Below, piece by piece: positions 4,519 through 41,211 of a stretch of 64,000 bases of DNA. A model generated the notes under the pieces. That model had not been told where the DNA came from. It was given only the letters and a program-made list of their open reading frames with translations, and did not search any database. Each line of letters starts with the position of its first letter. Within the stretch, counting starts at the first letter, position 1. Both the position numbers and the translations under genes were made by a program. The stretch lies in assembly GCF_008364625.2 (NCBI RefSeq), contig NZ_CP126604.1, positions 1,302,001 to 1,366,000 of the forward strand. Direction: 5' to 3'. This DNA is from Enterobacter dykesii (lineage in GTDB: Bacteria; Pseudomonadota; Gammaproteobacteria; Enterobacterales; Enterobacteriaceae).

Positions 4519-5257
4519 GCAGGCCGTTGCGGCGGCATTCGGTCGCGCCGCGCAGAGCTATTCGCAGCACGATGAGCTGCAGCGTTTGAGCGCGCAGGGG
4601 CTTCTGGCCGCCCTTGGCGAGAACCGCTTCCCGCAGGTGCTGGACGCCGGCTGTGGTCCCGGCAGCAACAGCCGCTACTGGCGCGGGGCGGGAAGCCAGG
4701 TTACGGCTATCGACCTCTCGGACCAGATGCTCGACGAGGCGCGTCAGCGGCAGGCAGCGGATCGCTATCTGCTGGCTGATATCGAGGCGATCCCGCTGGC
4801 GGATGCGCAGTTCGATCTGGTCTGGAGCCATCTGGCGGTTCAGTGGTGCAGCAGCCTGCCGCAGGCCCTGCGCGAGCTTTATCGCGTCGCGCGACCGGGC
4901 GGGATGGTGGCCTTTACCACCCTGCTGGAAAGTTCGCTGCCGGAGCTAAATCAGGCGTGGAAAGCGGTGGATGAGCAGCCGCACGCTAACCGTTTTTTAT
5001 CGCATGAGCAGGTGACGCAGGCGCTGGCAGGCTGGCGCTACCGCAGCGTGGTGCAGACCATCACGCTTAATTTTAGCGATGCGTTCAGTGCCATGCGTTC
5101 GCTGAAGGGCATCGGGGCCACGCACCTGCATACCGGACGCGAGAAAAAACCGCTCACCCGCGGTCAGCTGCAGCGTCTGGAGCTGGCCTGGCCGCAGCAG
5201 CGGGGACATTTCCCGCTCTCTTATCAACTTTTTCATGGGATTATCGAACGTGACTGA
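4502..5257 (+). CDS. bioC: malonyl-ACP O-methyltransferase
   Basis: 251 residues from the ATG at 4502, the exact length of E. coli BioC. The ATG at 4463 would put 13 arginine-rich residues in front and lies inside bioF, so it is rejected. BioC methylates malonyl-ACP so that fatty-acid synthesis can build the pimeloyl chain. SAM-binding motif I is [12 protein letters not shown] near residues 45-56, followed by ITAIDLS-like and [16 protein letters not shown] motifs. It overlaps bioF upstream and the bioD start downstream. The BioH esterase partner is not in the window. Confidence 0.95.
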
Positions 5258-5951
5258 ACGTTATTTTGTCACCGGAACGGATACGGAAGTGGGCAAAACG
5301 GTGGCCAGCTCGGCGCTGCTGCAGGCGGCGCGAAAGCTCGGAAAAAACACCGCCGGGTATAAGCCGGTTGCTTCCGGCAGCGAGATGACGGCGGAAGGAT
5401 TACGCAACACCGACGCGCTGGCGCTCCAGCGTAACAGCACGCGTGAGCTTGCCTATTCCGCGGTGAATCCGTACACCTTTGCCGAGCCGACCTCGCCGCA
5501 CATCATCAGCGCTGACGAAGGTCGTCCGATTGATTTCACCGTGCTGTCAGCCGGGTTACGGACGCTGGAAAGCCAGGCCGACTGGGTGCTGGTGGAAGGC
5601 GCAGGCGGCTGGTTTACGCCGCTTTCGGACGTGCAGACGTTTGCTGACTGGGTGCAGGCCGAGCAGCTTCCGGTCATTCTGGTCGTCGGCATCAGGCTGG
5701 GCTGCATCAATCACGCCATGTTGACCGCGCAGGCCGTACAGCAGGCCGGGCTGACGCTGGCGGGCTGGATAGCCAACGACGTGGTTGCGCCGGGGAAACG
5801 ACACCAGGAGTATCTGGCGACGCTCAGGCGCGTACTTCCCGCCCCGTGCCTCGGGGAAATTCCCTGGCTTGCTGACGGCGCGGAAAATGCCGACACCGGG
5901 CGTTATCTCGATCTCAGCGTCTTGCTTCCCGCGACATCCAGTGCGCGATAA
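5250..5951 (+). CDS. bioD: dethiobiotin synthetase
   Basis: 233 residues from the GTG at 5250, which overlaps the bioC stop by 8 nt. The upstream ATG at 5235 would add five residues not seen in the family. BioD closes the ureido ring of DAPA with CO2 and ATP. The P-loop [10 protein letters not shown] is at residues 8-17; the VLVEGAGGW and [17 protein letters not shown] motifs are family-specific. It is about eight residues longer at the C-terminus than the 225-residue E. coli BioD1, and its last 38 bp overlap the opposing ATPase gene, suggesting that junction was rearranged. Confidence 0.95.
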
Positions 5952-6636
5952 GCTCGTCATCCAGCTCGTTAACGTGGCCCTGCGCCACGTTACGCCCGCG
6001 ATAGAGCATGCAGAAACGGTCCGCCACCCGGCGGATAAACGACAGCTGCTGCTCCGCTAACAGCACCGTCATACCTAACTCCCGGTTTAAGCGCACCAGC
6101 AGCTGCCCCAGCTTCTGGGCGAAGCTGTGTCCTGCGCCGTGCAGGGGCTCATCGAGGATCAGCAGGTGCGGGCGGTTCACCAGCGCATTAGCCAGCGCCA
6201 GCTGATACTGATCGTCCGGAGAGAGCGTATTGGCGCGGGCCTGTCGCAATGCGTAGAGCGCCGGAAACAGGTCGTAAACGTCACTTTTCGCCTCCGGGTT
6301 GGGTTTCCCCATCGCCCGCATGGCGATATGCAGATTCTCCTCAATTGTTAACTGGGAGAAGATCCGCCTGTCCTGCGGGACATAGCCTATCCCCGGTCCT
6401 GAGCGCTGTTCTGGCGGCAGGTTAAGCAAGTCGCGCGGCGGTGCGCCCGCCTCGTGCCAGATGATGCTGCCGCTTTCAACGGGCACTCTCCCGGCGATGC
6501 AATTCATGAGGGTCGTTTTCCCCATCCCCGGCAGGCCAACGACGCCTGTACACATCCCTTGCGGAAAATCCAAATTCACGTTCCATAGCGTATGTTGACT
6601 TCCGTAAAACTGATTCACAGCACGCAGACTCAACAT
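5914..6636 (-). CDS. orphan UrtE/LivF-like ABC ATPase with degenerate signature
   Basis: 240 residues from the ATG at 6636, which has AAGGAGAG a few bases upstream; the upstream ATG at 6717 lies before the predicted promoter. It resembles UrtE/LivF ATPases of branched-chain amide or urea transporters: Walker A GLPGMGKTT at 34-42, Q-loop IGYVPQDRRIF, Walker B LLILDEP, and the family tail EQQLSFIRRVADRFCMLYRGR. The ABC signature expected as LSGGQ reads LSPDDQ, and the base after Walker B is LHGAGHS instead of TEGIQP. No permease or binding-protein gene is nearby. E. coli K-12 has no gene at this spot between bioD and uvrB. A sigma-54-type promoter and NtrC-like site precede it. Whether it hydrolyses ATP is doubtful; it may be decaying or may have a regulatory role. 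Confidence 0.8.
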   Translation of the reverse strand: MLSLRAVNQFYGSQHTLWNVNLDFPQGMCTGVVGLPGMGKTTLMNCIAGRVPVESGSIIWHEAGAPPRDLLNLPPEQRSGPGIGYVPQDRRIFSQLTIEENLHIAMRAMGKPNPEAKSDVYDLFPALYALRQARANTLSPDDQYQLALANALVNRPHLLILDEPLHGAGHSFAQKLGQLLVRLNRELGMTVLLAEQQLSFIRRVADRFCMLYRGRNVAQGHVNELDDELIAHWMSREARR

Positions 6637-6682
6637 CTTTCTCTCCTTAAAAATGTGTGTAGGTGAGGCTCGGGTTTGAATC

Positions 6683-6699
6683 TGCAAAACCCCTGCCAG
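6683..6699 (-). promoter_or_regulatory. predicted sigma-54 (-24/-12) promoter of the orphan ATPase
   Basis: Read on the minus strand: TGGCAGGGGTTTTGCA, i.e. TGGCA, then TTGCA, with exactly 10 nt between the GG of -24 and the GC of -12. The predicted start falls near 6672, about 35 nt before the ATG at 6636. Only the cytosine of TGGCAC is replaced. Confidence 0.7.
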
Positions 6700-6772
6700 A
6701 AACCGAAAAGTGTTCAAAAAAAAGGCTTTTTTAGGAATAAATCACCGGAAAGTGGTCTATTAAAAACCGGAT

Positions 6773-6789
6773 TGCACATCGACGGTGCT
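6773..6789. promoter_or_regulatory. NtrC-like enhancer site upstream of the orphan ATPase
   Basis: TGCACA-TCGAC-GGTGCT matches TGCACC-N5-GGTGCA at 10 of 12 positions, with a perfect GCAC...GTGC core. Its centre is about 109 bp upstream of the predicted sigma-54 start, a spacing typical of NtrC enhancers. A further GGTGCA half-site lies at 6806-6811. Confidence 0.6.
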
Positions 6790-6968
6790 GGCGGTGGTGA
6801 GTTGTGGTGCAGAACACAAAATGATGAAAATGTGAGCAAGATCTCGTCGATTGGTTATGAATGACGCAACTGTTAATCAGCAAAAAATAGCTATAAAAAT
6901 TTTTTCCCGCCGTCTCGTGGGAAAATCCGGGAATTTGCCGAGCGCCAGTCTGCATGGGCTGGAAGCAG

Positions 6969-6991
6969 TTATCCACTATTCCTGTGGATAA
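6969..6991. promoter_or_regulatory. opposed pair of DnaA-like boxes
   Basis: TTATCCACT at 6969-6977 (8 of 9 to the TTATCCACA consensus) faces TGTGGATAA at 6983-6991 (a perfect box on the minus strand), with five bases between. DnaA has been linked to the upstream region of E. coli uvrB, so this may be a uvrB control element about 400 bp from the start codon. Confidence 0.65.
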
Positions 6992-7293
6992 CCATGTGCA
7001 TTAGAGTTAGAAAACACGCGATAAGCGAGAGAGGACGCGGCTTACGCCCAAATTGGCGCGAAACGCGGCTTTAGAAAATATCGTTTATTATTTAATTGCT
7101 TAGATAAAAGCAATTCCCGTCATGAAAGTGTCACCCGTTGCCACAAAACTATCATTACCTGGCTTGACAAATGTTAAAAAAGAAAAAGTTCTGGGGATAA
7201 CCTGACCTGACTGGTGTTTTATATTGTCTCAGTCTAAATTTTGGCCGTTATCCCACTCATCATTCAGGCGCTATGCTAAATATCCTGACATGC

Positions 7294-7313
7294 CACTGGT
7301 TTTTCATCCAGTG
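7294..7313. promoter_or_regulatory. LexA box of uvrB
   Basis: CACTGGTTTTTCATCCAGTG fits CTG-N10-CAG and resembles the E. coli uvrB SOS box. It lies 76-95 bp before the uvrB ATG, so uvrB should be induced by DNA damage. Confidence 0.88.
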
Positions 7314-7388
7314 TTTTTTACTGGCATTCCTGGCAACAACGAGTAAAATTACTCACCTGCCGCTTATAACGTCATCAGGTCGTCGCCC

Positions 7389-9404
<2,016 letters not shown>

Positions 9405-40150: not shown

Positions 40151-40966
<816 letters not shown>

Positions 40967-41036
40967 TTACAAGCTATTGTTTTGCAAAGGGGATGATGTC
41001 ATGCATTGCACAATAAATGGGGCAATGAGGCTTTAT

Positions 41037-41066
41037 TGCACCAAAGTGGAGCACCGTTTTGGTGCG
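41037..41066. promoter_or_regulatory. two overlapping NtrC sites upstream of glnHp2
   Basis: TGCACC-AAAGT-GGAGCA at 41037-41053 and AGCACC-GTTTT-GGTGCG at 41050-41066 overlap by 4 bp; each fits TGCACC-N5-GGTGCA with one or two mismatches. They are about 100-120 bp upstream of the promoter start, as in E. coli. Confidence 0.85.
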
Positions 41067-41194
41067 CTTCGTTTGGCTCAACTGACGGGGAGATATTTAG
41101 CGTAAATTCTGACGAAAAAACAATCTTCCGTTAACGGTTGTGTGAGGTGATTATTACATTTCGTTCACTTTTGCAGGTGTGCAGACAAAAACTG

Positions 41195-41211
41195 TGCACC
41201 ATAGATGTGCA
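41195..41211. promoter_or_regulatory. third NtrC-like site, far upstream of glnH
   Basis: TGCACC-ATAGA-TGTGCA matches 11 of 12 consensus bases. It lies about 150 bp beyond the overlapping pair and could be an additional enhancer or serve a different transcript. Confidence 0.6.

Follow-up and report, generated by a model that had tools for sequence, protein, structure and literature searches.

The gene between bioD and uvrB

The window analysed here, a stretch of 64,000 nucleotides from the single-contig, 4.55 Mb genome of Enterobacter dykesii, holds a lone and apparently UrtE-derived ATP-binding coding sequence of the ABC type, placed by open reading frame and family scans on the minus strand at 5914..6636 (240 aa, ATG at 6636). 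It is the only gene between bioD (5235-5951, plus strand) and uvrB (plus strand, from 7389), both named by reading their translations; it is convergent with bioD, whose 3' end it overlaps by 38 bp, and a Shine-Dalgarno-like AAGGAG (6643..6648, minus strand) can be read before its ATG. We refer to it as the orphan gene. It stands alone, with no urtABCD genes beside it between bioD and uvrB, and its nearest named relative is the copy of Enterobacter asburiae TN152 (99% protein identity). No Rfam family reaches its gathering score within 5800-7500. The intergenic stretch between the orphan gene and uvrB has two further features of note. The first, GTTATCCACTATTCCTGTGGATAAC at 6968-6992, is an inverted pair of DnaA-box-like sequences, and its core TCCACAG[GT]AAT[AG]GTGGA occurs in all 90 loci described below and in E. 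coli K-12. The second, ACTGGTTTTTCATCCAGT at 7295-7312, about 77 bp before the uvrB start, is a LexA-like box.

For comparison we used 90 of 95 retrieved loci, the window's own included; they are related to one another, and some form near-identical pairs. Four were dropped because they had been refetched with longer flanks (L062, L063, L065 and L066, now L111, L112, L114 and L115), and L075 because it is a frameshifted Klebsiella copy. The neighbourhood is conserved, with bioD convergent in 94 of the 95 loci and uvrB divergent in 94 (duplicates counted), or 89/90 each in the reduced set; on the stretch compared, L104 shows no bioD and L119 no uvrB. Six loci (L053-L055, L093, L094 and L107) have about 1 kb more DNA between the orphan gene and bioD. 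The preliminary description of this DNA had left it undecided whether the ATPase gene had been placed or retained here, and a neighbourhood that holds in nearly all loci fits retention better.

Among 119 genomes of the family, one per genus and many of them very small, 42 carry the orphan gene, whose holders include many bacteria of the gut and of plants. E. coli does not: none of 20,395 records matches in a DNA comparison with 987 bases, and in K-12 the bioD-uvrB gap is 578 bp long, lacks the gene, and contains one weak sigma-54-like site (8/12) and no palindrome of at least 9/12. Loss of the gene in the E. coli line would be the simple reading. A search of the whole order at E 1e-60 found relatives in 42 of 394 genomes, 22 in the same family and 20 outside it (44-48% identity). 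The seven of the 20 that were read, along with both Vibrionaceae plasmid records, have an LSGGQ signature and are true UrtE; one Vibrio relative sits in an operon whose reading frames can be read as urtABCD and urease. A complete ancestral transporter operon adjoining the gene was not seen in the enteric loci. Of 72,556 plasmid records, 50 hold a relative at E 1e-40, and the best four have bioD under the match, which suggests that these four are probably chromosomal pieces.

A probable sigma-54 and NtrC-type control region

Upstream of the orphan gene, on the minus strand, lies a -24/-12 element of the sigma-54 type (TGGCAGGGGTTTTGCA, 6698-6683) with GG-N10-GC spacing; of the 12 positions scored in TGGCACGN4TTGCA it matches 11, and its -12 GC is 48 bp before the A of the ATG. 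Further upstream, at 6773-6789, is a palindrome of the NtrC type (TGCACATCGACGGTGCT on the plus strand, AGCACCGTCGATGTGCA on the minus strand) that agrees at 9 of 10 palindrome positions. It is 91 bp from the -24 element, and its centre is about 109 bp upstream of the predicted start, which is placed 12 bp below the -12 GC (about 6672). A distal half-site of the NtrC type, TGCACCA (CAACTCACCA, 6795..6811, minus strand), follows at 22 bp from the proximal site, its left half preserved in many relatives. The preliminary description had picked out the paired TGGCA and TTGCA before the ATG at 6636, the palindrome and a GGTGCA half-site, and all three are confirmed, the last at 6806-6811. Consensus sequences for sigma-54 and NtrC sites are given in PMC8743547; against the latter (TGCACCAnnnTGGTGCA), the proximal palindrome deviates by eye at 4 of 14 positions, three of them inner.

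Taken singly, each of these elements could be due to chance, because their counts in the window are near chance: a loose sigma-54 pattern matches twice against 0.52 expected, the second match being inside an open reading frame, and the palindrome with at most one mismatch matches four times against 3.53 expected. The same patterns nonetheless find two palindromes (41037 and 41195) and a -24/-12-like site (40948-40963) before three open reading frames that we read as glnHPQ. As glnHPQ is a known NtrC target, the recovery of its control region serves as a positive control.

Conservation gives a clearer answer. We required a sigma-54 element to agree at 9 or more of 12 positions, GG and GC being fixed, and a palindrome at 8/10 or better, counted both as a pair when 40-200 bp apart, and derived expectations from sequences that a Markov chain generated anew out of the dinucleotide transitions of each region, which does not amount to exact shuffling. 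The sigma-54 element occurs in 89 of 90 loci against 10.0 expected (62 score 11, 20 score 10 and seven score 9), and suitably spaced pairs in 86 of 90 against 0.66, which supports the NtrC/sigma-54 reading of the preliminary description. A palindrome somewhere upstream occurs in 90/90 (27.7 expected), a figure inflated by a separate element, TCCACAGGAATAGTGGA with its variants, that scores 8 and is present in all 90. On the opposite strand the sigma-54 element is found in 2/90 loci; on the bioD side it is found in 25/90 and both elements in 1/90.

The pair is missing from four loci, L025, L026, L104 and L107. The last, the sole locus below the sigma-54 threshold, has on reading an 8/12 version, TGGCCTAAGAGTTGCT; the two Lelliottia loci L025 and L026 keep the promoter and have no palindrome within 200 bp, and none within that distance is found in L104 either. 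The preliminary description had set its reading against a loss of the -24/-12 and enhancer bases in orthologous regions, and this is not what the relatives display. The -24/-12 bases are preserved, at 11/12 positions, in 34 of 34 relatives on genome contigs, among them Enterobacter, Lelliottia, Huaxiibacter, Kosakonia, Phytobacter, Mangrovibacter and other Enterobacteriaceae; Klebsiella pneumoniae also keeps them, and both elements are found in most further genera, including relatives at about 50% protein identity. The retrieved loci include none named Citrobacter. In a 22-row alignment of the region, 11 of the 14 invariant columns fall within the -24/-12 element. Three loci from as many genomes of one genus (L053, L054 and L055) have a second sigma-54-like site, TGGCACTTTTATTGCA (11/12), about 559 bp upstream of the orphan ATG.

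The two elements also keep a common phase. In 85 of 90 loci a palindrome of at least 8/10 lies between 60 and 199 bp upstream of the best promoter element; there, enhancer and promoter are 82, 91-93, 101-105, 109-114, 122-125, 133-135 and 145 bp apart, clusters that step by about one helical turn. The resultant length, computed for 40 representatives that share less than 80% protein identity, is 0.82 at 10.7 bp, the best of periods from 10.0 to 11.5, and is matched by none of 5000 uniform draws treated alike, a count that is no true probability as the representatives share ancestry. L119, with a spacing of 57 bp, is off phase and outside the measured range. Looping by an activator would require that changes in length persist mainly in whole turns, as they do here.

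It could be argued that the resemblance is fortuitous and that an ordinary sigma-70 promoter gives expression, as the near-chance frequency of each single motif in the window would allow. Conservation at the levels given above removes this reading, conservation and phasing together extending over 85-90 loci, and we give it next to no weight. A second alternative would retain the sigma-54 promoter and assign it to an enhancer-binding protein other than NtrC. The inner palindrome positions that differ from the NtrC consensus would agree with this, as would the three of 90 loci that have the promoter and no palindrome within 200 bp. Yet the GCAC-N7-GTGCA arms and the second TGCACCA half-site make up the NtrC pattern (consensus in PMC8743547), and the glnHPQ sites are recovered with these patterns too, so that another activator seems improbable. 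The control region thus has the appearance of a phased NtrC/sigma-54 promoter that has been inherited together with a gene retained between bioD and uvrB, and we regard NtrC as its activator with high confidence.

The leader was also searched for an operon partner of the orphan gene, which was discarded: by eye, no small open reading frame is common to 16 loci (15 with the promoter at threshold; leaders of at most 472 bp). A 70-aa open reading frame annotated in Klebsiella covers the enhancer and was taken as spurious.

The protein and its possible partners

The orphan protein belongs to PF00005 (ABC_tran), with 80.5 bits against a gathering score of 25. Its best curated family is UrtE (TIGR03410), where 206.3-206.9 bits fall about 79 short of the 285.8-bit cut-off. 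Besides the true UrtE encoded elsewhere in the same genome (351.3 bits), two LivF-like paralogues (226.3 and 219.3 bits) also score above the orphan on the UrtE model, so it is the tree that carries its tie to UrtE. In that tree the orphans, represented by 46 of their 90 rows, form one clade with 99/99 support, next to nine UrtE rows among which are those of Vibrio and Photobacterium; as judged from it, the orphan gene is a monophyletic offshoot of UrtE. The label "UrtE-like ATPase" of the preliminary description is accordingly apt as a statement of relationship, and not of identity, given 206.9 against 285.8 bits, a lost signature, and a proper UrtE along with a UrtA over its cut-off elsewhere in the genome.

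The loss of the signature is a feature of the whole lineage. Among 90 orphan proteins (89 relatives and the window's own), the Walker A motif, here GLPGMGKT (6514..6537, minus strand), conforms to GxxGxGK[ST] in 90/90, and Walker B, here LLILDEP (6145..6165, minus strand), has its D in 90/90 and its E in 89/90; the Q-loop region is largely kept, and most rows have E-Q at the switch position. The ABC signature position reads LSPDDQ in the window (6208..6225, minus strand), and LSGGQ is found in 0/90, the commonest forms at the five positions being LSPDD (14 of 90) and LSEDN (12). In contrast, true UrtE proteins over the cut-off have LSGGQ in 20/20. These 20 come from a UrtE-model set of 21 loci in 20 family genomes, the remaining locus (L168) being the orphan of genome G465; at 272.4 bits it is near the 285.8-bit cut-off, yet its signature already reads LCDGE. 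The predicted structure is an ordinary nucleotide-binding domain (NBD) fold (mean pLDDT 83.4), and the Thermotoga maritima ABC ATPase 1ji0 is the nearest solved protein in both sequence (E 1e-45) and fold (TM 0.86, rmsd 2.1).

The overlap with the 3' end of bioD raises the possibility that what is conserved is a transcript, NtrC driving an antisense RNA that runs into the biotin operon convergent with it, the ATPase gene being a passenger in decay. Decay is not what the coding sequence suggests. The dN/dS of the orphan (NG86) is 0.012-0.141 in 20 of 21 pairs, one being not computable and several having dS above 1, and among the 18 pairs that also gave a value for bioD it is the lower of the two in 15. 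The gene appears to be under purifying selection like that on bioD and does not look like one in decay, which speaks against the passenger role, as does the roughly 1 kb that separates the two genes in the six loci named above; we consider an antisense function very improbable.

A weightier alternative is that the protein still works as a motor, taking the place of UrtE or LivF in an importer of the Urt/Liv type under nitrogen limitation and pairing with UrtD or LivG, in which case the only active site would be that formed by its own Walker A/B and the partner's signature. UrtE is both its best family match and its tree neighbour, little has changed in Walker A/B or the Q-loop region, and importers with "multitask" NBDs exist (PMC7658222, PMC5730181). 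The loss of LSGGQ in 90/90 argues against it. Its partners offer evidence on both sides. UrtA exceeds its cut-off in 35 of 119 genomes, 30 of which have the orphan, whereas by our tally only 12 of the 84 without UrtA do; the Fisher p is 1.4e-13 over all 119 genomes and 7.4e-5 when restricted to the 65 that have any UrtA-model match, both values ignoring kinship. That the orphan is commoner where UrtA is present fits a transporter partner. LivG is over its cut-off in 59/119 genomes. A link to urease was rejected, as urease occurs in 22/119 genomes, 15 with the orphan, and 27 of 42 orphan genomes are without it.

UrtA over the cut-off is nevertheless missing from 12 of the 42 orphan genomes, and these, along with the window's own genome, were searched for partner permeases. 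In eleven of the 12, the UrtB model finds matches of Liv grade, at 155-169 bits. The other, G476, shows no Urt/Liv system: there is no UrtA-model match, the best UrtB- and UrtC-model matches (53.8 and 32.2 bits) reveal no permease of Liv/Urt grade, and no LivG exceeds its cut-off, the best match having 145.3 bits against 362. This level of about 145 bits is also that of a non-LivG ATPase in other genomes, which we infer to be LptB. The G476 orphan (L102) is intact at 236 aa, with a promoter of 10/12 and a palindrome of 9/10. G476 is one genome in about 40 contigs, listed as 100% complete, so that a stretch may have been missed and the evidence is thin. On these data the orphan does not track urea transport strictly, the two being partially uncoupled.

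An Urt partner was also sought through co-regulation, and rejected. Upstream stretches of urtA were compared in 21 genomes, our own and 20 of the other 34 with UrtA, three of them without the orphan; the sigma-54/NtrC pair is present in only 3/21 and absent from 18/21, and a longer upstream stretch showed no further pair by eye. The orphan and urtA are hence not generally co-regulated by these sites, which counts against the motor role. The urtA gene of the window's own genome (L120) has a sigma-54-like TGGCATCCTTTTTGCT and an NtrC-like TGCATTATAAAAGTGCA about 95 and 183 bp upstream. For K. oxytoca, PMC8381380 reports strong upregulation of urtABCDE during diazotrophy and suggests, without showing the data, that NtrC and sigma-54 sites are present. 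On balance, we think it unlikely that the orphan is an alternative motor.

Proposed mechanism and known counterparts

We suggest the following sequence of events. Phosphorylated NtrC would bind to the palindrome (6773-6789), with help from the half-site (6795-6811), and loop over some 90-100 bp to open E-sigma54 at 6698-6683, so that nitrogen limitation would yield a single-gene transcript with a leader of about 36 nt. The protein it encodes would be an old, vertically inherited descendant of UrtE. With Walker A and B kept, ATP binding most likely remains; with LSGGQ lost throughout, the signature half of a partner's ATP site could not be supplied. Because the ATP-binding motifs are kept and the signature is lost, we propose that the protein would most likely be an ATP-dependent regulatory or "pseudo" NBD, docking on an NBD of the Liv/Urt type or on a soluble partner, and not a transport motor.

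Set beside the conservation, phasing, synteny, purifying selection and motif loss reported above, this explanation as a whole, an enteric member of the Ntr regulon in which an NtrC-activated sigma-54 promoter drives a UrtE-derived and probably regulatory pseudo-NBD, has in our estimation a probability of about 60%. Its parts differ in strength. ATP binding without signature function is likely on the motif evidence; for a regulatory role, which draws on the motif loss and on G476 as the one genome without a visible partner transporter, the balance tips only slightly in favour. A bolder version, in which the pseudo-NBD is induced by nitrogen starvation, acts independently of every Liv/Urt transporter, perhaps as an energy-sensing regulator or a decoy, and has been lost by E. 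coli, is one that we offer tentatively, with the odds somewhat against it.

The new findings are that the control region is so broadly conserved and keeps its phase, that the protein has lost its signature, and that the gene is partly uncoupled from urea transport. Most of what is known of the enteric nitrogen response comes from E. coli, where the gene has no match, and hence a member of that response present in 42 of 119 sampled genera could have been missed. The orphan gene is not mentioned in the titles, abstract openings and paper passages searched, those of PMC8381380, PMC11101070, PMC12959161, PMC5343134 and PMC8743547 included; it may be listed elsewhere, for instance in supplements, subscription journals or regulon databases. 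A signature lost across a lineage in which the ATP-binding motifs persist offers a clean example from nature of an ABC motor that has become something different. If the bolder version above is true, a transport motor would have been converted into a regulator within the response to nitrogen stress.

The closest parallels are as follows. NtrC/sigma-54 promoters of enteric bacteria include glnAp2. With such promoters, represented in the window by the glnHPQ site (40948-41211), the control region shares the -24/-12 element, the upstream palindrome with a second site and the spacing of about 100 bp; it differs in that its target is a lone pseudo-NBD and that inner palindrome bases deviate. With UrtE (TIGR03410), the protein has in common the Walker A/B motifs, the Q-loop, E-Q at the switch in most rows and a neighbouring clade, but the orphan is a stand-alone gene, has lost LSGGQ, and is kept in genomes without UrtA over the cut-off. 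The T. maritima ATPase 1ji0 is alike in fold (TM 0.86), at an identity of 31%. Stand-alone multitask importer ATPases such as MsmX of Bacillus have an intact signature. They are likewise NBDs that work for importers while belonging to none of them as its own fixed subunit, and they differ from the orphan in that they energise sugar importers.
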